Shown in pieces: positions 3-15,645 of a stretch of DNA of 28,744 nt (positions within the stretch are counted from its first letter, which is position 1; the number at the start of each line of letters is the position of its first letter). Source of the stretch: a virus; the IMG/VR virus record IMGVR_UViG_3300046808_000219, positions 1 through 28,744 of that record. One strand, given 5' to 3'. The position numbers and the translations under genes are program-made. The notes below the pieces were generated by a model. The model made no database searches, had not been told where the DNA came from, and saw nothing but the letters and a program-made list of their open reading frames with translations.

Positions 3-950
3 CCTACGCCCACCGGCTTTACCTTATCACCAACGCCAACGGTTACAGAGACGCCTACGCCCACTGTAACAGTGACGCAGCCTCCCACACCCACGCCAAC
101 GGACCCAACCAAATGGACGACTAAAGACTGGGTTATGCTTGGTCTGGCTGCGCCAAACCTTATCAATAGCATTGTCGGTAAGGGTGAGGACGTTGGTACT
201 ATCACACCAGATAGAAGCGCTGTGAACTTTAACCCGCTGAATCGTCAGGCCGGCATCGGAACCTTTGATCCTTTTACATATGGGCAAGAGGGCCCCGGAT
301 ATCAGACGGCAGAGTTTGAGTTCTTCCAGCCGTATAGTGCGGCTCAGCCGACTCAATCATATACGCCTACCAATGTAACATGGACGCCGGGGGCTGACAT
401 TTACAAGTATACCCCTGAGGAGTTTGAGGCGATGAAAGCTGACGCAGCCGCACAGTACGGGACGAGAAGCGCATCGTTTAACAACTATCAGCAGATGCTT
501 GCTCAGCAAGTCGAGTCTGGCGCGTTGACGCTTGATCAGGCTCTTGCTGAGGCGCGCTCCTACGCTGAGCCATTCGGTGGTGCCATTATCCCCCAGAAGG
601 CTGATGGCGGATATATTGGTTACGCAGATGGTGGCGAACCTGAAGATGATATGATAAAGCATCTTATGGAATACCGCAAAGGTGGCGGTCATAACGGCCC
701 GGGCCCTGTCAAAGGCATTGGTAGCGGGCAGGAAGACAAGATCCCGGCGTGGCTTTCTGATGGTGAGTATGTCTGGAGCGCTCAAGATGTTGCCGATCTC
801 GGCGATGGCTCAACGGACGAAGGTGTAAGGCGGCTTGACAAGATGCGTCAAATGGTGCGCAAACAGGCAGGCCGGAAGGACGTGAAGAAGATCGCGAAGC
901 CGCAAAAGGGTATCGAGCAGATGCTCAAGGCGGTTGGAGGTAAGGCATAA
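3..950 (+). CDS. Virion-associated protein with Pro/Thr-rich N-terminus (5' partial)
   Basis: The frame is open to the left edge, so the true start lies outside; an internal GTG at 72 is not needed. The first ~35 codons are a Pro/Thr repeat, and a 14-base DNA motif (acgcctacgcccac) recurs about 50 bases apart, near 1-13 and 51-64. After it comes a hydrophobic-amphipathic stretch and a C-terminal segment with the pattern GxGSGQEDKIPAWLSDGEYV, then a basic tail. From family knowledge, this IPAxLSDGEYV block is common in uncharacterised proteins of the late structural module of podovirus-like phages, next to internal or tail proteins. It overlaps the next gene by TAATG at 947-951. The exact role (tail, core or ejected protein) cannot be assigned from sequence. 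Confidence 0.85.
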   Translation, partial: PTPTGFTLSPTPTVTETPTPTVTVTQPPTPTPTDPTKWTTKDWVMLGLAAPNLINSIVGKGEDVGTITPDRSAVNFNPLNRQAGIGTFDPFTYGQEGPGYQTAEFEFFQPYSAAQPTQSYTPTNVTWTPGADIYKYTPEEFEAMKADAAAQYGTRSASFNNYQQMLAQQVESGALTLDQALAEARSYAEPFGGAIIPQKADGGYIGYADGGEPEDDMIKHLMEYRKGGGHNGPGPVKGIGSGQEDKIPAWLSDGEYVWSAQDVADLGDGSTDEGVRRLDKMRQMVRKQAGRKDVKKIAKPQKGIEQMLKAVGGKA

Positions 951-1948
951 TGGCGGTTCAACAGACAACTACCCAGACCATCCTGCCGGAATGGTACACC
1001 CAGTACGCTCAGAACGTGCTGAGTAAGGCCTATGGAGCTACCTCTGAGCCTTATCGGAAGTACGTAACTAAGGACGCTGCTGGGAATGAGGTTCCTATCG
1101 CCCGTATCGCCGGCTTCCAGCCTGAGCAGGAAGAGGCTTTCGGTAAGTTCAAGTCCACGATGGGTAATTATCAGCCATACATTGGCGCTTCAACGCAGGC
1201 CCTTGGAGCCGGGACTCAATCCTTTACCGCTCCCGGCGTGGCTCAACGCTACATGAACCCATATCTGCAGAACGTAGTTTCTGGGATCGGGGCTATGGCT
1301 GGCCGCAATCTGTACGAGAACATCCTTCCTCAAGTGAATCGCACCTTCATTGGTGGTGGGACATTTGGTGGATCTCGCAGTGCTGAGTTCACCCAGCGCG
1401 CTATACGCGACGCGCAGGCCGCAGCACTTGAGAAACAAGTTGGTGCATTGAGCGAGGGTTATAAGAGCGCTGCAGACTTGTACGGTGCTGAGGCCGAACG
1501 CATGCTTGAGGCCGCGCCTCGCTTCGCTGAGCTTGGCGCACAAGAGCAGGAGCAACGGTTCGCTGACATCAAGGGCCTGCAGGATATCGGCTCTCTTCGC
1601 CAGCAGTTGGCGCAGCAGTCTGCCGACTTGGCCCGCCAAGACTTTGAAGAGCAGCGTGACTTCCCGTACCTTCAGGCTCAAAGGCTTGCGAATATCGGGG
1701 GCGCTCCTTCGGCCACTGGTTCTGGAACCCGAATTGAGACAGCTCCGGGGCCGTCTGGTACATCTCAGGCCCTTGGCACTGTGGCTACTATTGCGGGCCT
1801 TCTTGGTAAGACTGGCGCATTCGGCAGCCAAGGCTGGCTGTCTAAGATCTTCAAAGAAGGTGGTGAAGTCGAAGGGCCTGTGAAGGATGGCAAGCGCAAT
1901 CTGAAGCACCCGATGCATGGTCTCGGCTGGTTGAAGGATGTGAAATAA
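950..1948 (+). CDS. Phage structural (tail or internal virion) protein, 332 aa
   Basis: The ATG at 950 overlaps the upstream stop (TAATG), so translation is probably coupled. The protein is Gln/Ala-rich and mostly helical. Features seen: an N-terminal LPEWYTQYAQ segment, the motif YMNPYLQNVV near residues 100-109, a Gly-rich turn (FIGGGTFGGSR) near residues 133-143, and a long Glu/Gln-rich helix. The C-terminal end (about residues 300-332) is Gly/Lys-rich. From family knowledge, the YMNPY plus GxxGGSR combination occurs in uncharacterised virion proteins encoded just upstream of very large ejected proteins in podovirus-like phages. It has no catalytic motif. The structural assignment rests on position and pattern, not on a named family. 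Confidence 0.82.
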   Translation: MAVQQTTTQTILPEWYTQYAQNVLSKAYGATSEPYRKYVTKDAAGNEVPIARIAGFQPEQEEAFGKFKSTMGNYQPYIGASTQALGAGTQSFTAPGVAQRYMNPYLQNVVSGIGAMAGRNLYENILPQVNRTFIGGGTFGGSRSAEFTQRAIRDAQAAALEKQVGALSEGYKSAADLYGAEAERMLEAAPRFAELGAQEQEQRFADIKGLQDIGSLRQQLAQQSADLARQDFEEQRDFPYLQAQRLANIGGAPSATGSGTRIETAPGPSGTSQALGTVATIAGLLGKTGAFGSQGWLSKIFKEGGEVEGPVKDGKRNLKHPMHGLGWLKDVK

Positions 1949-3225
1949 TGGCTTTCATGGACGATGATAGAATCCGCCGTGCACAGCGACTCGCATTCTT
2001 AGCTCGGTCTGGGGTGCCCGACGTATTTATGCCGGGTGCTCCTCCTCCCGCGCAGGCAACGCCATCAACACCTCTTCCCGGTACGCCTATGGACAGAGCT
2101 GTTGTCGCTCCCCAGTCTGAGAGCGCAGTCAATCCTCAGTACGATGAGTTCGCTGCGCTTCGCGGATTGATCACGCCTCGTGAATTTACGCCGACTGGCA
2201 ATAAAGAGATTGATGCGATCCTAACACGCGGCTCCCAGACAAGGCAGGCTGGAGCGCGGAATATACTTGATATTCTCTCTAAGGCTCGCATGAATCCTGA
2301 AGAGGAATCTCTTCTCAATGAGCGTCGTGCGCGCACAGCCAAGGATCTAGAGCGCCTTGAGAGTGATAAGAAGCAGGAAGGCTGGGATGCACTAGCTCGA
2401 GCTGGTCTTAAGATGGCTCAGAGCAACAGCCCGTATTTTATGCAGGCTCTGGCATCTGGTCTGGAAGCCGGCATCCAAGGCTTAGACGAAGCCAAGCTTA
2501 GGCGCGAAGAGAAGCGTTCCCGCCTGCAGGCTGCAGATGAAGACCTTCGTCTGGCCGTTATTCGTGGTCGTCAGTCTGCACAGGATCGTGCTCTCTCCGT
2601 TTATAATGCTGCAATTGCTGCAGGTGAAACTGAAGAGCGTGCGCAGGCTGCTGCTCGCAAGGCTGCAGAGGAAGAAGCCACACTACCTCAGCGTCTCGAG
2701 ATGGCTAAGCTTGAGGTCGAGGGCAAGAGACTTGATAACAAGCTGACTGCAGCCAGAACTGTTGACGCCCTGCGTGGCCCGAGCGGTGGAAGCAGCGGGG
2801 GTGGTGGTGACGGCACGCCGGGGCCAAGACCGCTTCCTCCGGGCGCGCGCGCTGAAGCTCAGGGCCGTCTCGCCACTGCATATTCAGAGCAGGATGAGGC
2901 GTATCGTGATTGGGTTGCCGCTGGAAAACCGCTCATTGGAAAGGTTAAAGAAGGCACTGACGAGTGGTCTGCGGCGAGCGCATACGAAGCAGCGCGCGGC
3001 AAAGTTAATAACATCCTGAAAATATTGGGTGAGCCGTCTCTCGGCCCCGCTCCCACCCGGACTGGTGGCCAGCGGATTACACAAGCTCAGCGCAGGGCTG
3101 CGGCTCCGCGTCCCGCTGCACGCCCCGCAAGTTCAGGAAGCTCTCTAAAGAAAGGTGACGTAGTCAACGGATATCGCTATAAAGGTGGTGATCCGAACGA
3201 CAAGAAAAACTGGACGAAGGCTTAA
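1948..3225 (+). CDS. Coiled-coil-rich virion protein, 425 aa
   Basis: The ATG overlaps the preceding stop (TAATG). A Pro-rich N-terminus (about residues 28-50) is followed by long charged helices rich in Arg, Glu and Ala (about residues 95-270) that look like coiled coil. A Ser/Gly linker near residues 275-290 leads to a second helical part, and the C-terminus carries GYRYKGGDPNDKKNW. That last motif (GyrfKGGDPxdxxNW) is a recurrent ending of phage structural proteins beside large internal virion proteins. No enzymatic motif is visible. It is likely a minor virion or internal core component made with its neighbours; the precise role is unknown. Confidence 0.8.
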   Translation: MAFMDDDRIRRAQRLAFLARSGVPDVFMPGAPPPAQATPSTPLPGTPMDRAVVAPQSESAVNPQYDEFAALRGLITPREFTPTGNKEIDAILTRGSQTRQAGARNILDILSKARMNPEEESLLNERRARTAKDLERLESDKKQEGWDALARAGLKMAQSNSPYFMQALASGLEAGIQGLDEAKLRREEKRSRLQAADEDLRLAVIRGRQSAQDRALSVYNAAIAAGETEERAQAAARKAAEEEATLPQRLEMAKLEVEGKRLDNKLTAARTVDALRGPSGGSSGGGGDGTPGPRPLPPGARAEAQGRLATAYSEQDEAYRDWVAAGKPLIGKVKEGTDEWSAASAYEAARGKVNNILKILGEPSLGPAPTRTGGQRITQAQRRAAAPRPAARPASSGSSLKKGDVVNGYRYKGGDPNDKKNWTKA

Positions 3226-3227
3226 TT

Positions 3228-6200
3228 ATGGCTCAACCTTGGGAACGCAAATGGAATGTGGTTCCGTCTGGCAGTTCCAAGCCGTGGGAAGTGGATTGGA
3301 AAAGTCCACAGTCCGGTCCTAAACTTTCTGAAGACCTCAAGCGCCGTCAGGCGGAGATCGAGGCTGAGATCAAGCGTCGTCAGGCGCAGATCGAAGAGGA
3401 TCGTCGCAAAGCTGAAGCAGCCCGATCCGCCCCAAAATCATTCTTTGAGCTTCTCACTCGCGGCGTAACTGGCGGCGAGACTGAAGAGGCTGGTGTTCGT
3501 GATGACGCCAAGGCATTTGAGGCGCGCGCTGCCGCAAATAAGCAGGCCATCGATGCATTAAACCGTGAGCGTCAATTTATTCAGGAGCAAGGTCGGCCTG
3601 TTCCTAAGTTGACCACGACTGGTCGTATCCGTGAAGCAGCCAAGGCTCTTCCTGCGCAGGCTATTCGTAGCACATCACAGTTTGCAGGCAGCGCAGGCGT
3701 TATCCCGGGCGTTGGCGAAGACTTTGCGCGGCGCATGGAGCAGCGTGGTGAGAATGTAGTCAAAAGCCTTGGTTTGCAGGAAAGTGAAGAGGTTCAATTT
3801 GATCCTCTCCAGCAGGCTATTAGTGGTGTCACTGGGGGCATCGGCAGTCTGATTCCATACGTTGGGACTGAGCTTGCTGGTCGTGGTGTCGCTCGTGGCT
3901 TGCGTGCCGTCGAGGCTGCTCGTGCGGCAGACCTTGCACTCAAGGCTTCTCGTGGCGCACAGGCCTCACTCGGCGCTGGTCAGGGGGCTGCGCAACAGCG
4001 TCAGCAGATTGAAGAGTTCGAGCGTGAGACGGGCCAGACAGTGTCTCCATTCCGCCGCTCCGCTTCTCAGTTTGGCGGTTTAGTAATTGGCTTATCGGAA
4101 GCGCTACCCATCCCGGGCATGGCTCAGACAGGTGTCGCGCGTATTGCAGCAGAGGGTCTGAAGAACCGAATCGTTAAGTCTGCCATTGAAGAGAGTGCGC
4201 AGGAAGGTGGCGCACAGCTCGCTCAGAATGTCATCGAAGCTGCGGGTTACAATCCTGAGAAGGTTCGCAATCTTGGTGAAGATGTTCTTGAGAATGCGAC
4301 TCTTGGTGCCATCACTGGCGGTATTGTAAGCGGGACAACTGGTGGCGCACAGGCTATCTTCGAGCGCGGCAAGCCTGCACCGGCTGGAAATGTTCCTCCT
4401 CCTCCGCCCGGTGCAGAAGCTAAACCTCTGCGCACAACGACGGTTACCTATCCTAACCGGGAAGACCCGACGAATCCAGTTACGCGCACGCTCGATGTAC
4501 TGAGTGAACCTGACACTGACGGTTACATCACTGTGCGTGATGATACTGGAAAAGCGTTTGAAATGAAGGCCGCTGACCTTGAGGAGCTGGAGATCGCATC
4601 TCCCGCCTACAAGGTTACTCCTGAGACTGAAGCTCCACCTCCCACTCCGACAGTGGACCGTGCGACGATTACTGAGCGCCTGCGTCTAGCAAGTGGCACG
4701 CCTGAAGGTAAGAAGCCTGTTGGTCGCGTCATGTCTTTGGCGAATGACGTAGCATCTGCACTCGAGGCAGAAGATCCTGTCGCTGCACAACGGGCAATCC
4801 AGTCTCGCATGAACGCTCTGGCTGCCAGCCGTATGGCTGAGGAGACAAAGGCGCAGCGTCAGGCTGAGATCGATGAGGCGCAGAGCATCGTCAATGATTA
4901 TCGCGTCGAGTTCGCACGCGCGCGTGCAGCAGCTCCTGCGCGTGTTGAGGCCCCGGCTATTGAGCCCTCGTCTGTTGAGCAGGCTATCGATCAGAACTTG
5001 GGGCTTGCGGCAGAGGACGAAGCACGCGCTGCTGCTGAGCGCGAACGATTGAAGCTTGAGAGTGATTTGGAGACTGCGTCTCTGATTGGTCAGGGATCTC
5101 CAATCCGTCAGGCGCAGACAGAACGGCAGCAACTCTTCGACTCCATCATTAACGATGATACAGTTGAGAACCCGGCTGCCACCTTCCGGCAGGCGCTGCG
5201 TGATCGCGGCTATCCGAACACCGAACTGAATGAGGCAGAGCGCCGTCAGGTACAGGCGCGACTTGCATTTGAGCAGGCTCCCATCGTGGAGGAAGAACCA
5301 GTTGCAGGTGAGCCCACCGAAGTCCCAGCACCGCCTTCCGCTGCCCCGCCCGAGGTGGTTGCTGGGGCAGCCGAGCCAGTGATTGAAGAAGAGGGTGTTT
5401 CGCCTGTTCCCACTGCGCCCCCCACTGTTGTCACCGCGCCGCCTTCCGCGCCTGCTGCTGCACCCGCTGCCGCCCCTGCTGAAGCCCCAGTTAAGCTAAC
5501 GCCATACGAAAATGTGGCGATGTCTATCGTCTATTATCCGTCAGGCGCTGAGTACTCATACATTGGGGCAAAAGAGCCAGAGTGGGGGCCTCCTGCAAGG
5601 GACCGTGATCGTTCCTTGGAGAGGTATTCTCCGGGTTATGATTACGATACGGCTCGTGCCTTTGTGGGGAGGAGGGACATCGATGCCGTTGAGGTTAAAA
5701 ATGGCATACTTCCTAATGGCGAAAAGGTAACGACCGTTTCCGTTATTGTACCTTCGGTAGACGAGACTCTCGGTGACCGTGGCAATCATACTGGTGTTAC
5801 ATTCTGGTTTCGCGGCGCATATCCGGCAGACCTTGCGTCTACTATTGAAACTGCACAGACGGTTGCAAAGTGGATCGCTAATCCGAGTAACTCAAAGAAG
5901 TCTAATGGTCCGCTGAATAGCATCGGGAACAAAGCCCTAGAATACGTTGCTGATCTCGGCGGTCGGGAGCCATCAGAGTCTACTGATTACAACCCCAACC
6001 TCCTGTCATCTCCTAACACGGTTGTCGCTCCCGACATCGCTGCCGCTGCCGCTGACATTCAGAGCAGGTTGGATGCGGGCGAAACCCACATTCAGGTTGT
6101 TCTTGCGGAAGAGCCGGGTGTTCCTGCTGTTGCTCTGGGCGAGGAGCCTACTCCGTCTGCTATGGCTGGCGAGCTGGCCGGCGCTCCCGTCACGGCGCAG

Positions 6201-9200
6201 GAAGCTACCGACTACGATGCTCGCAAGGCTCTACGTGAAGATGCGCGAAACAAGCTGCGTGAAGTTCTGAAGGGCTTTGGCTTCGACAACATTACGGTGA
6301 TTGTCCGCGATCTTCTCGAGGGAGGTAAGCTCGCTGGCAGCTATGACCCTATGGACAGTATCATCCGCGTCGCCATGAACCCAGATGGCACGGTGATGGA
6401 GTCTGTGCTGTACCATGAGCTGGTGCATTACCTGAAGGATCATGGTTTCTTCAGTGATGCTGAGTGGAGCGCGATCCTGAAATTCGCCAAGCGCGATCTC
6501 GTTATGCGTGGCATCATTGAATATGCTTATCGCGGTGATACGCGGGCCAACAAGGACGAAGAGATCGTCGCCGAATCCTTCCGTGCATGGATGGCTGAGA
6601 GCGCAGAAGGATTCCAGAAAAAGAACAATGTGTTCGCGAAGGCCCGCCGTTTCCTTAATGCGATCCGAGACTTCTTCTTCAGCCAAAACCTGAATGATGC
6701 GAACGCTGTGTTCGATGCGATCCGCAATGGCGAGTTCGCGACGCGCGAAGACAAGGGCTCCGCTAAGCGCGCAGCATATTTTGCAGGCACAGCAGAGATG
6801 CCGGGCCGTCGCCCGATCTACGCTGGTCGTGGGATCACGGAAGCTCGTGAAGGCGAGAACGAGATCGATGCAGAAAATCGCCGCTTAATCGCCGAAGACT
6901 ATGCTGTCGCTCAGCAGATGGAGCAGGACGGTCAGGACGCTGCTACCATCCGCGTGGCTACAGGTTGGGAGCGTAACCCATACGATAACGAGTGGCGTTA
7001 CCTACAGCCTGACAACTTGGCACAGAAGAGAATGTTCCTCGAAGATCTGATTGAAGACTTCGATACTGCAAAGATGTCGAACCAAGATAAGTTTATCAGG
7101 GGTGGAGCCATCGAGCTTCAGGATCTCATTCGCCATCCAGAGCTTTATAAGATCTATCCTGAGGCGAAGAACATTCAAGTCTTTGTTAAGAAGTCTCTCC
7201 CGAACAATAATGTTCAAGGCTCATTTAACCCTGATAAAAAATCTATAACTCTCTACACTAAGGCAGTAGACCCTCTGGGTACGCTGCTCCATGAGGTTCA
7301 GCACTGGGTGCAGGACAAGGAAGGCTTTGCAGTCGGCGGCTCTCCTGAAGGTGTTTGGGAACAACTCAGCCCAGCTCAGAAAGCTGATGAGGGAATGATC
7401 TTCATTGATAAAATGAAGACCGAACTCGAGGCGAATAAGAGCGCCTCCGATATCCTGTCATTCTTGATTGATACTCTCGAAGGTGACCTCGGCCTATTCC
7501 CGACTGAGCAGCAGATTGAAGAGGCTATTGCCCCTTACTTCTTTGAAGACCCAGCCGCTGATGACGCTGGGATTGATACCGCCATTGACGCTATACGCAA
7601 ATTCAATGTTTATCGGGAAACATCTGGCATCCCTGCATTGCCAATCGACGCGACTGCGCTTTCCCTGATTGAAGGCGATATCAATTCTTATGCGTCTGAT
7701 CTTCAGTCGGCCATTGAGAATATGAGCACATGGGATGGCACTGATAAGACTTCCCCTGCCGCAAGAATGGCGAAGAAGTTCTTTGCTGAAGACGCTGATC
7801 GTGCATTCACCCGCTATCAGAATCTTGCCGGAGAGATCGAGGCCCGTGACGTATCTGCGCAGAAGGGCAAGACCCGGGAAGAATTGCGGGCCGTTGGCGC
7901 TCTGAAATCCGAGCGTGAGCGCAAGCCCGGTGAAGTCGTCGTCAGCCGCCGCGCTGAGGGGCCGTCTGCGTCAGCGGCTCCGAACCCGACTGTGCCGCCT
8001 AGCACAACCAAAGGTGCGAAGCTGGGCTTCATCACCAATATGCGCAACTTCATGAGCGACCTGTATCGGAAGCACATGTACAAGTATTCCGGCGCGCTGA
8101 AGCTGGACGAGAAGCTTGCGAATGCGTTGGGTGTGAAGAGACTGCCCAAGGAGATGTCGCTTGAAGATCGCGCTTCGATGTTCGAGACGATGCGCTCTGG
8201 TCTTCTCCGTGACTTCAAGCGCATGTGGTTCGATCCATTCAAGCGCGCAATCAAGGCGTCCGGTATCGATCCGCAAGATCTGTCGATGTATCTCTGGGCC
8301 CGCAGCGCAGCAGACCGCAACGCTCTGATTGCCGAGCGTAATCGTGACATGCCTGATGGCGGCTCTGGCCTGACGAACCTCGAGGCCGAGGCTATCCTTG
8401 CCTATTACAAGGCGTCTGGCCTGATGCGTAAGATGGAGCCGCTGATTAAACAGCACGATCAGCTCGTCGACTGGATGCTGAAGCAGCGGGTCAAGAATGG
8501 CCTGATGTCCAAGGCAGAGGCCGATCTACTGCGCAAGCAGCAGCCGTTCTACACGCCACTGAAGGGCTTCGCTGCCGACGGCGACATGTTCACAGCCGGT
8601 GATGAAGATCCGCACACTGATTACAAGGGCCCGTCACAGCTTGGTGTGCGTCCTCAGGACTACATCAAGACTGAAGGTCGTGCATCGATGCCGTTCGATC
8701 CAGTGTCGAACCTGATTTCAGATGCCATGTACCTGACCCAGCGGATCGCCCGTAACGACGTGGGCAAGCGTTTCGTCTCTATCGTGCGGGACTTCCCTGA
8801 TCTTCTTGGGGATGCGGTGAAGATCTATACGGACGACAAGCCGAAGATTGTCAGCAAGGGTATTGCTCCTCCGGGTTCGACGAAAAAGACGGTTGGCCCA
8901 ATGAACATGGCCGCGAACGCCAATAAGTTCATCGTCGTTAAGATTGATGGCAAGAATTATTACGTCGAGCTTAACGAGAAGAAGAGCGATGGCGCAATGC
9001 TGAAGCGCATGTTCGAGAACATGACGCCGAAGGATCTTGATGGCTTAGTGAAGGTCTTGGCCAAGCTAGGCAACCTCAAGAAGCAGATGCTCACGCGCTT
9101 TAACCCGCCGTTCTGGGTGTGGAACTTTGGCACTGACGTATACGACGCCATCGTCACTGCTATCTCAGAGAAGACGCGCGAAGGCAGTCCTGTCCAAGGC

Positions 9201-10733
9201 AAGGACGTAGCGTTGCGCTTCATGGGTAATCTTGTGAAGCCATCAACTTGGACGGCTGTTGGTCGCTACATTACTGGTCGAGACCCAACGGATGCCAAGG
9301 CCGCTGAGAACGTCCTGCTTTTGAGCCAGATGGTTCAGGATGGTGGTGAAGCTGGTCGCCAGTATGTGATGAAGGCAGAAGAAGTTGCTGACGAAATCAA
9401 GCGGGACGCTGCTATCATAAAGTCAGGTGGCGTGAAGAACATCTGGGGCAAAGCCAATGAGAAGCGGAGGGCTCTGGTGCGTGTCGTTGACGGCATCAAT
9501 GAGTTCTTGGGTCTGGTGCCGCGCTTCGCTGCCTACAAGGCTGCCATTGATGCCGGCGTTGAAGCAGACGATGCCGCTAAGTTTGCGCTCGACTCTACTC
9601 TGAACCTTTCCCGTAAGGGTGAGGCGACGGATGCGGTTGATAACATCTACCTCTTCACCAATCCTGCAGCGCAGAGCCTTGAGAAGAAGGGTCGCATTTA
9701 CAAAAGCAAGTATGGTCGCCGCGCTCTAGCTGGCATGATGACGCTCGGCGTCGGCCTGCACTTCTTTAACATGATGATGGCTGGCGATGAGGATGATGAT
9801 GGCGAGAACGATTATCAGGAGCTGGATGAAGCAACCAAGCTGAAGAACCTGATCATCTACACTGGTGACGGTGAGCCGATTAAGATGCCCGTCGGCTTCT
9901 TGGTTGCGTTCGAGGTTTACCTTGGGCAGCAGCTTGCCCGTATGATCACGAACGACAGCAGCGGCATCGGTGTCATGCAGGCTGCGGCCAATGCATGGAA
10001 TGGCTTCTTCTCGTCTCAGCTCCCAGCAGGTGACAAGATAGGCAGCTTCGGTGATATTCCTAAACTTGCCATCCCAGATGTCTTCACGTTCGGCCTAGAT
10101 CTGTATCGCAACAAGAACTACTTCGACGGCCAGATTTATCCTGAGCCTTACTATGAGGGTCAGGCTGTGTCGGGCATGCCGCGTGAAAGCACGGGTGAGT
10201 TCTACAAGAAGTTTGCAGCAGCCGTGAACCGTTGGGGTGGTGGCACAGAAGATGTGGCCAGCGACTTTGATACGCCTGCTGAGGCTTGGCAGTACGCCGT
10301 GAACCAGAACCTTCTGGTCGGCGGTGCTGGTATCCCGCGCGACTTCTTCAAGGCCTATGAGGAAGCTGACGTTACCAAGCTTCCGATTGTGAAGCGGTTC
10401 GTTGGGGACAGCAGCGAGTACGCCGCGCAGAATAAATACTTTGATCGCATCCAGAAGATCGAGGTCATCGCCGGCCAGAAGGAAGGCGAGAACAAAAATA
10501 GCGATGCCTATGCTGAGTCCAAGGAGAAGTTCCCGGTCGAGGCCGACAGCAAGGTCATCAAGGCTTACAAGGATTCTGAGAAGCAGCTGCGCAAGTTAAA
10601 TAAGGATGCGCGCGAGGCCCGTAAGAATGGCGGACCGAACATGCAGTCGAAACTTGATAAGATCAAGCAGGACCGCAACGAAGTCTATGTGAAGTTCAAC
10701 CGGAAGTACAACGAGGTGAAGCAGGGGCTCTAG
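3228..10733 (+). CDS. Giant polyvalent virion protein (2501 aa) with two zincin-like motifs and an LPD38-like domain
   Basis: This is the last late gene; it starts two bases after the preceding stop (TAA-TT-ATG). Layout seen: N-terminal coiled coil rich in KRRQ/E repeats (about 28-70); a Gly/Ala-rich amphipathic region (about 130-385) that could insert in membranes; a Pro/Ala/Glu-rich linker (about 685-765); a zincin-type HELVH at residues 1063-1067 with a downstream EEIVAESF segment that may supply the third ligand; a second HEVQH at 1355-1359 followed by KEGFAVGGSPEG, a pattern typical of phage and plasmid polyvalent proteins; a helical region (about 1610-1790); and from about 1955 to 2395 a region resembling large polyvalent protein-associated domain 38. 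The C-terminus is a Lys/Glu-rich helix. Proteins of this class are thought to be packaged and ejected with DNA to act early in infection. Peptidase activity is inferred from the motifs only. No lysozyme or transglycosylase motif was recognised. Confidence 0.93.
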   Translation: MAQPWERKWNVVPSGSSKPWEVDWKSPQSGPKLSEDLKRRQAEIEAEIKRRQAQIEEDRRKAEAARSAPKSFFELLTRGVTGGETEEAGVRDDAKAFEARAAANKQAIDALNRERQFIQEQGRPVPKLTTTGRIREAAKALPAQAIRSTSQFAGSAGVIPGVGEDFARRMEQRGENVVKSLGLQESEEVQFDPLQQAISGVTGGIGSLIPYVGTELAGRGVARGLRAVEAARAADLALKASRGAQASLGAGQGAAQQRQQIEEFERETGQTVSPFRRSASQFGGLVIGLSEALPIPGMAQTGVARIAAEGLKNRIVKSAIEESAQEGGAQLAQNVIEAAGYNPEKVRNLGEDVLENATLGAITGGIVSGTTGGAQAIFERGKPAPAGNVPPPPPGAEAKPLRTTTVTYPNREDPTNPVTRTLDVLSEPDTDGYITVRDDTGKAFEMKAADLEELEIASPAYKVTPETEAPPPTPTVDRATITERLRLASGTPEGKKPVGRVMSLANDVASALEAEDPVAAQRAIQSRMNALAASRMAEETKAQRQAEIDEAQSIVNDYRVEFARARAAAPARVEAPAIEPSSVEQAIDQNLGLAAEDEARAAAERERLKLESDLETASLIGQGSPIRQAQTERQQLFDSIINDDTVENPAATFRQALRDRGYPNTELNEAERRQVQARLAFEQAPIVEEEPVAGEPTEVPAPPSAAPPEVVAGAAEPVIEEEGVSPVPTAPPTVVTAPPSAPAAAPAAAPAEAPVKLTPYENVAMSIVYYPSGAEYSYIGAKEPEWGPPARDRDRSLERYSPGYDYDTARAFVGRRDIDAVEVKNGILPNGEKVTTVSVIVPSVDETLGDRGNHTGVTFWFRGAYPADLASTIETAQTVAKWIANPSNSKKSNGPLNSIGNKALEYVADLGGREPSESTDYNPNLLSSPNTVVAPDIAAAAADIQSRLDAGETHIQVVLAEEPGVPAVALGEEPTPSAMAGELAGAPVTAQEATDYDARKALREDARNKLREVLKGFGFDNITVIVRDLLEGGKLAGSYDPMDSIIRVAMNPDGTVMESVLYHELVHYLKDHGFFSDAEWSAILKFAKRDLVMRGIIEYAYRGDTRANKDEEIVAESFRAWMAESAEGFQKKNNVFAKARRFLNAIRDFFFSQNLNDANAVFDAIRNGEFATREDKGSAKRAAYFAGTAEMPGRRPIYAGRGITEAREGENEIDAENRRLIAEDYAVAQQMEQDGQDAATIRVATGWERNPYDNEWRYLQPDNLAQKRMFLEDLIEDFDTAKMSNQDKFIRGGAIELQDLIRHPELYKIYPEAKNIQVFVKKSLPNNNVQGSFNPDKKSITLYTKAVDPLGTLLHEVQHWVQDKEGFAVGGSPEGVWEQLSPAQKADEGMIFIDKMKTELEANKSASDILSFLIDTLEGDLGLFPTEQQIEEAIAPYFFEDPAADDAGIDTAIDAIRKFNVYRETSGIPALPIDATALSLIEGDINSYASDLQSAIENMSTWDGTDKTSPAARMAKKFFAEDADRAFTRYQNLAGEIEARDVSAQKGKTREELRAVGALKSERERKPGEVVVSRRAEGPSASAAPNPTVPPSTTKGAKLGFITNMRNFMSDLYRKHMYKYSGALKLDEKLANALGVKRLPKEMSLEDRASMFETMRSGLLRDFKRMWFDPFKRAIKASGIDPQDLSMYLWARSAADRNALIAERNRDMPDGGSGLTNLEAEAILAYYKASGLMRKMEPLIKQHDQLVDWMLKQRVKNGLMSKAEADLLRKQQPFYTPLKGFAADGDMFTAGDEDPHTDYKGPSQLGVRPQDYIKTEGRASMPFDPVSNLISDAMYLTQRIARNDVGKRFVSIVRDFPDLLGDAVKIYTDDKPKIVSKGIAPPGSTKKTVGPMNMAANANKFIVVKIDGKNYYVELNEKKSDGAMLKRMFENMTPKDLDGLVKVLAKLGNLKKQMLTRFNPPFWVWNFGTDVYDAIVTAISEKTREGSPVQGKDVALRFMGNLVKPSTWTAVGRYITGRDPTDAKAAENVLLLSQMVQDGGEAGRQYVMKAEEVADEIKRDAAIIKSGGVKNIWGKANEKRRALVRVVDGINEFLGLVPRFAAYKAAIDAGVEADDAAKFALDSTLNLSRKGEATDAVDNIYLFTNPAAQSLEKKGRIYKSKYGRRALAGMMTLGVGLHFFNMMMAGDEDDDGENDYQELDEATKLKNLIIYTGDGEPIKMPVGFLVAFEVYLGQQLARMITNDSSGIGVMQAAANAWNGFFSSQLPAGDKIGSFGDIPKLAIPDVFTFGLDLYRNKNYFDGQIYPEPYYEGQAVSGMPRESTGEFYKKFAAAVNRWGGGTEDVASDFDTPAEAWQYAVNQNLLVGGAGIPRDFFKAYEEADVTKLPIVKRFVGDSSEYAAQNKYFDRIQKIEVIAGQKEGENKNSDAYAESKEKFPVEADSKVIKAYKDSEKQLRKLNKDAREARKNGGPNMQSKLDKIKQDRNEVYVKFNRKYNEVKQGL

Positions 10734-13520: not shown

Positions 13521-13827
13521 GCCCCTGATAAACATCCTCAAGGGAGCGGGCTAAAATGTAGATCCCGCCACGCTTTTCCCAAGCATGTTGCCATGCCACT
13601 TGAGCTGTGCGCTGCTTCCCCTTGGGCGCTTTAACCTCAATCGCAAACGCCTTTCCGTTAGGGCCCATGACCCCAAGCAAGTCGGGTGTTCCTTCAGGTG
13701 CAGACCTTACTACGCCTGCGTTCCCGCTAACTGGGCGGAACAGTCCGACGTTAATGCGGAACATCATGATGTCATCCCTCTGGCCCAGAGCTAGACGTAT
13801 CTGTTGCTGGAGAACTGCTTCGCTCAT
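13504..13827 (-). CDS. VRR-NUC domain nuclease, 107 aa
   Basis: A single-domain PD-(D/E)XK nuclease of the VRR-NUC type. The core runs EGTPDLLGV (residues 45-53, Asp49 as a predicted metal ligand), FAIEVKAPKGKQ (61-72, with Glu64-x-Lys66 as the catalytic pair) and QVAWQHAWEKRGG (76-88, the conserved helix). Stand-alone VRR-NUC proteins of about 100 residues are common in phages next to SF2 helicases and primases and are thought to cut branched or flap DNA. The start has GGAGGG about six bases upstream, and the first 56 bases overlap the 3' end of the glycosyltransferase gene in another frame. Confidence 0.9.
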   Translation of the reverse strand: MSEAVLQQQIRLALGQRDDIMMFRINVGLFRPVSGNAGVVRSAPEGTPDLLGVMGPNGKAFAIEVKAPKGKQRTAQVAWQHAWEKRGGIYILARSLEDVYQGLDIQP

Positions 13828-14779
13828 CTCCGACCCTCCATGTTATGTGGCGCTTTGAGTATTCGATCCCGCTTCTCTTCTCGTATTCATCCAAAGATCG
13901 GGTGGTCCCAAGTCCGTATGCACCACCAGTCTTCCGGTCAAACAGAAGCTCGCGCAGCCTTTTGTTGCTCATCGAGCCCATCTCGGTCCACTTTGTTTTG
14001 CGTTTAGAATCAACCGACTCGTGCCAGTGATGGGTAACGTAGTCGTTCCCGTTCTCTTTATAGAGATGATAAACTGGGATGAATGTGTCTCTTACATGGA
14101 AGATGTCCCAGCCATGCGTGAATGCACGGGTTGCTATGTTCTGCTCTTCGCCTTCGAAATACATTCGATAGTCGTATGGAACCTCTTCAATGAAGTCGCC
14201 CGGAGCAAACACAAATCCAGCAGCGATATGGTAGCCAACCCTCATGACCGGGCCTTTCACATACACAGCACCAAAGCCGAATGAAACCTTGTCATCCCTT
14301 GGGTTTGCGTCGGGCAGTGGTCGCAAGACAAACACAGCGTCCTGCACGATGCCGTTCTTGAACGGCTTTCCGTTCTCATCGAAACCGAATGGCGGTGGGT
14401 AGGTGCTGATTATAGGCTTGGCTGACTTCTTCTTCGCCGCGTTGATCAGCCTCAGAAGCCTAACGTCCCAACCCTTGTCGAACCATGTGTGCGAATCGAT
14501 CTGCAGGAAGTAATCTTCACCGCAATAGAGTGTATTGCAAACGCTGCGCGCCCAAGATGCGCCTCGCGCCTGCACTGGATCGATCTGTAGATACCGCACG
14601 TTAGCGTCGTATTTCTTTTTGGAAAGCCAAGATGTCGTATCAAAATCACTCTGGTCGAATAGGCCAACAAAGATGCGCTTCGGATGGCTGGCTAACTTAA
14701 ATATGTTATCCAACGTGAACTCAAGCAGGGGCTCCTGATATGCCGCCACTGAAACGAATATCGTCGGCTCGTCGCTCAT
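13772..14779 (-). CDS. GT60-like (GlcNAc-type) glycosyltransferase, 335 aa
   Basis: The N-terminus TIFVSVAAYQEP begins a GT-A fold; FVGLFDQSD follows near residues 37-45. The key signature is ARGASWARSVCNTLYCGEDY (71-90) followed by FLQIDSHTWFDKGWD (91-105), where Asp95-Ser-His97 replaces the usual DxD metal site. This matches the Glycosyltransferase (GlcNAc) family (PF11397), whose founding members transfer GlcNAc to protein hydroxyproline. The real start is the ATG at 14779, which overlaps the upstream stop (ATGA) and has GGAGG nearby. Its place between a helicase and a nuclease gene is unusual. The target could be a phage or host protein, a surface glycan, or possibly DNA; the sequence does not say. 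There is no signal peptide or membrane segment. Confidence 0.85.
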   Translation of the reverse strand: MSDEPTIFVSVAAYQEPLLEFTLDNIFKLASHPKRIFVGLFDQSDFDTTSWLSKKKYDANVRYLQIDPVQARGASWARSVCNTLYCGEDYFLQIDSHTWFDKGWDVRLLRLINAAKKKSAKPIISTYPPPFGFDENGKPFKNGIVQDAVFVLRPLPDANPRDDKVSFGFGAVYVKGPVMRVGYHIAAGFVFAPGDFIEEVPYDYRMYFEGEEQNIATRAFTHGWDIFHVRDTFIPVYHLYKENGNDYVTHHWHESVDSKRKTKWTEMGSMSNKRLRELLFDRKTGGAYGLGTTRSLDEYEKRSGIEYSKRHITWRVGDERSSSPATDTSSSGPEG

Positions 14780-15645
14780 GCCCTTGCCTCCACCTTGTAG
14801 TCTTTCACCACCATCCCGTCCTTGCCGTTGACCAAGGCGGCTGCGACCCAAGATCTCTTGCCTGACTTGTAATGTCTCCAGTGCCCACGGCGCAGGTGAG
14901 TGACGGGTGATGCGTGCGTTCCACCCTTACCTTCTTTGGAAACCTTCCGCTTCCCGGTGATCGTGATTACCTTGTATGTCATCAGCGGCTTCTTCCCACG
15001 AAGCCGCCTCAGTCTTTGAGCCTGCGCATCAGGCTTTTGATCAACGATCTCTGTCTCGTACTGGGACATCGCCAAGCAGAAGTCCATGTACACGGACAGC
15101 TCTTGATTGATATTGCTAAGTTCGATTGAAGCGTATGTCTCCAAGGACATGGGTATCTTCACGGCTGCTACCGCTCCGGGCCAGCACTCTCCGTATCGAA
15201 TGGCATCGTTATCGCTAAAATCCCTTGGCTTTGTTCTGCTCAGGGCAAAGCTCCGCCCATATATAAAACGCCAATAGATACCGGGTGGCGTCCATATGTC
15301 TTGAGCATCCGCATAATAGGCAGGGAAGAGGGTAACCCCATCGTTCTCATCGACAGCCAGAACCAGACGCTTGGTTGATGGCGTCTCGCCGGCACGAAGT
15401 TCCCCGCCTCCCTCAGTATATTCTATGACTGTCGTAGGGAATGGGGGGCGCAGAATATCAGTTTCAATAACCACCTCATCGCCTTCTTTCGGCAGGATAT
15501 AACCCCCATGAGGCAGTTGGAAATGAACGGCTCTGGACTCAATCCGCTTCCTGATCCTGTTGAAGTAGCCTGCTCCAGCAGGATTGGACTTTGCAAACCA
15601 TTTGAGATCATCGCAAAATTCATTCGAGAAATATCCTATGCTCAT
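14776..15645 (-). CDS. Conserved phage protein of unknown function with basic C-terminal RGHWRHYKSGKR motif, 289 aa
   Basis: The start is the ATG at 15645, overlapping the previous stop (ATGA); the 3' end overlaps the glycosyltransferase start the same way, so the three genes are coupled. The N-terminal part looks mixed alpha/beta (YFSNEFCDDLKWF; LPHGGYILPKEGDE). The C-terminal part is basic and ends with HLRRGHWRHYKSGKRSWV at about residues 254-271. From family knowledge, an RGHWRxYxSGKxxWV tail recurs in uncharacterised phage proteins; its His/Arg/Lys density suggests nucleic acid binding. No catalytic motif is recognised. Confidence 0.78.
   Translation of the reverse strand: MSIGYFSNEFCDDLKWFAKSNPAGAGYFNRIRKRIESRAVHFQLPHGGYILPKEGDEVVIETDILRPPFPTTVIEYTEGGGELRAGETPSTKRLVLAVDENDGVTLFPAYYADAQDIWTPPGIYWRFIYGRSFALSRTKPRDFSDNDAIRYGECWPGAVAAVKIPMSLETYASIELSNINQELSVYMDFCLAMSQYETEIVDQKPDAQAQRLRRLRGKKPLMTYKVITITGKRKVSKEGKGGTHASPVTHLRRGHWRHYKSGKRSWVAAALVNGKDGMVVKDYKVEARA

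Follow-up and report, generated by a model that had tools for sequence, protein, structure and literature searches.

Gene organization and genomic context

The window, meaning the whole stretch of DNA that was analysed, is the entire 28,744-base virus record IMGVR_UViG_3300046808_000219, for which no completeness estimate is given and which is probably a fragment of a larger genome, so that little can be read from a gene missing in it. On its plus strand, positions 3228-10733 form an uninterrupted open reading frame for 2501 aa, the last plus-strand gene ahead of a minus-strand block encoding RecT-, RecE/YqaJ-, helicase- and primase-like products. A GlcNAc-type glycosyltransferase gene (13772-14851, minus strand) lies amid these recombination and replication genes. 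In the operon, a DNA-ejection-like gene is followed by a gene for a 425-aa protein and then by the gene under study, the largest and last of the three (Table 1), and a gene with coiled tape-measure-like matches is located further upstream.

This order is that of gp7, gp20 and gp16 in the ejection operon of the podovirus P22 (ejection proteins are reviewed in PMC8954989), although the final protein is much larger here, and the last and largest gene thus takes the position of the P22 gp16 or T7 gp16 ejection protein. The 425-aa protein, which has the size and place of P22 gp20, gave no family match in family searches, and by its position it may be the gp20 counterpart. In comparison with the closest relative (L002), the 3' part of its gene and the beginning of the 3228-10733 gene diverge together. 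The 3228-10733 gene is adjacent to virion structural genes, as is typical of phage-type polyvalent proteins. Its 2501-aa product was taken for a polyvalent virion protein in the initial annotation, and the presence of LPD23, LPD38 and two zincin modules within one large polypeptide bears this out. The virion context is likewise supported by the operon position and by a homologue, gp60 of Pseudomonas phage H66, whose database record notes that its presence in virions was verified by mass spectrometry; by analogy with such relatives, the protein is very probably a virion component.

Table 1. Features of the 2501-aa protein and the two genes preceding it (nucleotide positions in the window; amino acids numbered from the protein start)
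Feature	Amino acids	Nucleotides	Strand	Basis
DNA ejection protein-like gene, upstream		950..1948	+	phrog_4287, E 9e-17
425-aa protein between the ejection-like gene and the 2501-aa gene; size and place of P22 gp20		1948..3225	+	Gene order
Whole gene, polyvalent/ejection-type protein	1-2501	3228..10733	+	ORF, translation
N-terminal block, A/G-rich, divergent among relatives, weakly like Vibrio phage large proteins	1-400	3228..4427	+	Sequence comparison
Linker block, 64-84% conserved in both close relatives, end Pro/Ala-rich	401-740	4428..5447	+	Comparison, composition
Insert between linker and module 1, missing in both close relatives	741-960	5448..6107	+	Comparison, searches
Zincin module 1, core	990-1128	6195..6611	+	AlphaFold2; profile match to virion RNAP chain 11fw_A
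HELVH	1063-1067	6414..6428	+	Sequence
E1112, predicted third metal ligand of module 1 (EEIVAES helix)	1112	6561..6563	+	Model helix 127-145; E1112 kept in L002 and L016
LPD23	1223-1264	6894..7019	+	Pfam, E 3.8e-7
Zincin module 2, core, with helical insert inside	1317-1544	7176..7859	+	AlphaFold2, alignments
HEVQH, then Q..EGF..GG	1355-1359	7290..7304	+	H, E and H invariant (57-row alignment)
GEIEAR, predicted third metal ligand region of module 2	1535-1540	7830..7847	+	G1535 and E1536 invariant; model helix 551-561
C-terminal block, common to E. coli and Vibrio podovirus large proteins	1659-2495	8202..10712	+	phrog_14770, E 1e-85; tblastn 24-28%
LPD38	2193-2359	9804..10304	+	E 1.1e-17, above Pfam cut-off

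Two HExxH sites in a predicted zincin fold

The protein, which has only 12 histidines in total, contains exactly two HExxH motifs, HELVH and HEVQH. When its sequence was shuffled (n=5000), the mean was 0.0042 HExxH per protein and no shuffle contained two. Moreover, both motifs are kept in L002, a protein of 2224 aa encoded on a separate contig, with an identical spacing of 292 residues. The middle of the protein (aa 984-1645) was modelled with AlphaFold2 from an alignment of 57 sequences, with a mean pLDDT of 75.6 and values well above this mean in both zincin cores. In the model, module 1 consists of a helix, three strands, the HELVH helix, one further helix and then the EEIVAES helix, and module 2 of three strands, the HEVQH helix, a helical insert and then the GEIEAR helix. 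Both thus follow, in secondary structure, the layout described for the MPTase core of polyvalent proteins, namely an N-terminal helix, three strands, the HExxH helix and a second helix with Glu (Iyer et al. 2017, PMC5512222), and the model places neither site outside a zincin fold. The proposal that the motifs are chance matches, or that the reading frame is an assembly artefact, is refuted by the shuffled expectation, by the conserved motifs and spacing in a separate contig and by the predicted fold.

The two zincin-like motifs of the initial annotation are therefore confirmed, and its description of two peptidase-like modules gains support, at the level of a model, from the predicted fold and the conserved residues. 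The claim that the sites lie in different sequence contexts is half right, since the modules proved to be remotely related: hhalign gave a probability of 91.5%, with the alignment on HExxH and the strands preceding it. Metal would probably be held in each module by HExxH and the Glu of a later helix, and peptidase activity is predicted on this basis. In Foldseek searches, the modelled region had 14 matches with E < 1e-3 in a viral library, the named ones being largely "large polyvalent protein" records, and no significant match in the PDB, where the zincins IrrE, selecase, PprI, collagenase H and Wss1 recurred in the top rows among helical-bundle noise.

Module 2 and the LPD23-zincin family

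All hallmarks of the LPD23-zincin family are present: TGW...WR in LPD23, HExQH..Q..EGF..GG and GExEAR, the last of which, as GEIEAR, presumably provides the metal ligand region of module 2. In the alignments made, the module was accompanied by LPD23-like sequence. One scan of IMG/VR returned at least 518 relatives, and one scan of bacterial and archaeal genomes returned 211, in Bacteroidota, Clostridia, Spirochaetes, Desulfovibrio, Proteobacteria and others; isolates with the module include the Pseudomonas phages F116, H66, AF and 8P. Bacterial genomes yielded no close relative of the zincin cassette, and no host is therefore proposed. Between the window and L002, module 2 is under purifying selection (dN/dS 0.17).

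Module 1 and its probable relation to N4-type virion RNA polymerase

Module 1 is of a more diverse type than module 2 and differs widely between phages at the same position; its relatives occur in PhiR5_2-type E. coli phage proteins and in F116, H66 and 8P. It is under purifying selection against L002 (dN/dS 0.04). A profile built from 18 sequences matches PDB chain 11fw_A with E 7e-6 and HELVH aligned, a 2493-residue chain recorded as virion DNA-directed RNA polymerase. Both this name and the chain length would fit residues 1008-3500 of N4 gp50, in which case the matched stretch would fall in the C1 domain (2124-2375) of the N4 virion RNA polymerase (vRNAP), a domain reported to carry HExxH (PMC12633501). 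On this identification, module 1 would belong with the N4-type HExxH C1 domains. A narrower profile of six sequences matched no zincin in the PDB, and the N4-type match thus depends on the broader profile.

E1112 is predicted, from three close sequences and a position in a later helix of the model, to be the third metal ligand of module 1; its short motif is also found in 30% of 125-aa windows, too frequent to serve as stand-alone evidence. EcoEI_R_C (Pfam) and Hvo_1808 (NCBIfam), which overlap module 1, were set aside as weak, the former being below and the latter far below its cut-off.

Regions surrounding the zincin cassette

The Pro/Ala-rich linker noted initially is evident in composition, aa 701-800 containing 20 P and 21 A. 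It runs into the insert, whose 220 aa had no relative in the collections searched. The weakly conserved N-terminal region had been described as amphipathic and a candidate for membrane insertion, and simple hydrophobicity and moment scans supported neither property: amphipathic windows make up 2.2% of aa 1-400, against 3.0% for the C-terminal part, and the transmembrane-like threshold was not passed by any window of aa 1-400. Across the whole protein, the hydrophobicity scan gave no strong transmembrane window, with a top peak of 1.35 at 2166-2184.

At the other end, the LPD38-like character of the C-terminus is confirmed (Table 1). Its reading as an effector-type region is not upheld, as the C-terminal 840 aa have homologues at the C-terminal ends of large proteins in other phages and LPD38 has no known function; by homology, a structural or ejection role would fit better. 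A fold search of the PDB returned noise for this block, and its structure prediction from 15 sequences was of poor confidence (pLDDT 59), so no fold is claimed for it. A PDB sequence search with the whole protein gave no useful match. The large protein of Vibrio phage 252E42.2 (L013, 5670-14870) has the same C-terminal block and lacks HExxH throughout, so that the zincins are dispensable in some phages.

It had also been suggested that wall penetration may rest on an unassigned region, an argument drawn from the absence of a cell-wall hydrolase motif in a 28.7-kb fragment. The contig of a close relative (L102) encodes a GH19-type endolysin (9248-9856, minus strand) within the structural gene block, upstream and outside the part covered by the window. 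This weakens the suggestion and is not proof of what opens the wall at entry.

Comparison with known systems

As in the polyvalent proteins of Iyer et al. (2017, PMC5512222), a giant multidomain protein is encoded beside virion genes and combines LPD domains with an HExxH helix and a Glu helix. The middle region has a parallel in the PLxRFG/LPD23-zincin virion proteins of F116 and H66, which possess both modules; in these phages, however, LPD23 and module 2 come first and a HEMIH/HEMVH-type module follows, and the C-terminus matches a tail-700/PLxRFG model (tested in F116) and not the LPD38 block. The E. coli podovirus PhiR5_2 (phrog_616 type) shares a homologous LPD38 C-terminal block, a module-1-type zincin and the placement of the giant gene at the 3' end of the late gene cluster, whereas LPD5, LPD1, MuF_C and a CLCA_X-type match with its own HExxH replace LPD23 and module 2. 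N4 gp50 is similar as a giant ejection protein that contains the related C1 domain and ends in a large helical region, but the C-terminal blocks have no detectable sequence relation, and its RNA polymerase domain is absent from the 2501-aa protein, for which no T7-like RNA polymerase domain was matched in Pfam, PHROGs, NCBIfam or the PDB.

Mosaic exchange and proposed function

Three sequences, those of the window, L002 and L016, were compared in the blocks aa 1-400, 961-1545 and 1611-2501. In both end blocks, L002 and L016 resemble each other (46-79%) and the window differs (20-37%), while from module 1 to approximately aa 1545 the window and L002 match closely (92-100%) and L016 differs (26-53%). 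The linker (aa 401-740) is similar across the three, and only the window has the insert. As far as three sequences can indicate, this hints that the two ends change together and that the zincin cassette changes apart from them, and such separate swapping suggests a division into delivery parts and payload parts.

The reading that we favour, and consider reasonably probable, is that the protein is the largest among the ejection proteins of a short-tailed phage, of polyvalent type and with two zincin peptidase modules that most likely serve self-processing. It would be stored in the phage head and enter the host along with the DNA, passing the tail as folded units on loose linkers. Packaging and ejection would be the task of the blocks at the N- and C-terminus, and the middle would carry the two zinc-peptidase modules, that of N4 vRNAP type first and then LPD23 with module 2, each holding its metal by HExxH and a Glu from a later helix. 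The modules may cleave their own polypeptide and let its parts come apart, either ahead of packaging or once the phage DNA has entered, with cutting of host proteins as the second choice of use. Processing by such domains was proposed from phage P1 DdrB (PMC5512222). However, packaging leaves N4 vRNAP, with its related HExxH domain, uncut (PMC5512222); cutting before packaging is thus not general, and the cut could instead come after entry or fall on host proteins, or the role could be regulatory. We put self-processing, as opposed to host targets, at roughly even chances.

That the modules are instead injected effectors cutting host proteins, for example in defence or transcription, is the less probable view, though an option listed by Iyer et al. 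(PMC5512222); the exchange of the cassette apart from the ends between related phages is payload-like, and the wide variation of module 1 types between phages at the same position points the same way. Module 2, in contrast, is very uniform in phages with hosts of many phyla, which a general task on the phage's own protein would explain better. A more elaborate version, in which the matched end blocks form a delivery device for an exchangeable two-zincin payload and the modules differ in cleavage specificity and act in sequence (e.g. one freeing the payload and the other cutting a host target), is improbable and is offered as speculation.

One or both modules might keep the fold and have a structural or regulatory role comparable to that of the C-terminal domain of N4 vRNAP, with no peptidase activity in the infection cycle, and this would accord with the uncut packaging of N4 vRNAP, with the autoinhibition of transcription by its C-terminal domain, including the HExxH C1 (PMC12633501), and with the Vibrio phage 252E42.2 protein, which keeps the C-terminal block without HExxH. 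We regard it as rather unlikely, because a structural role would tolerate loss of H or E, whereas module 1 is under strong selection and none of the 57 rows aligned for module 2 departs from HExxH or from the GE of GExEAR.

Frequency of the two-zincin arrangement

Zincins are the commonest domain of phage-injected proteins, and the 2017 survey that named them leaves their role open. In that survey, about 36% of polyvalent proteins had one to five MPTases and about 8% more than one copy (Iyer et al. 2017, PMC5512222). Among long proteins with module 2 (>= 1500 aa), at least two HExxH motifs were found in 41 of 60 and three in 6 of 60, fractions that are not survey-grade because the sample was drawn from the best 80 matches plus a few isolates; altogether, 107 HExxH were seen in these 60 proteins versus about 2 expected by chance. 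Besides L002, 13 IMG/VR loci share the order seen in the window, with an HExxH 226-335 residues ahead of the module 2 motif, and F116, H66 and 8P show the reversed module order. Because double zincins are this frequent here and one to five MPTases have already been published, the layout belongs to a described kind that is common among phage polyvalent proteins, and the 2501-aa protein is a good new example of it. What the case adds is a clear two-module arrangement whose key residues are defined, a connection between module 1 and an N4-type virion RNA polymerase chain and evidence that LPD23-family proteins often have the double arrangement. In one further contig (L019), two LPD23-zincin copies occur together with a third HExxH in the 3578-aa product of the reading frame from 3528.
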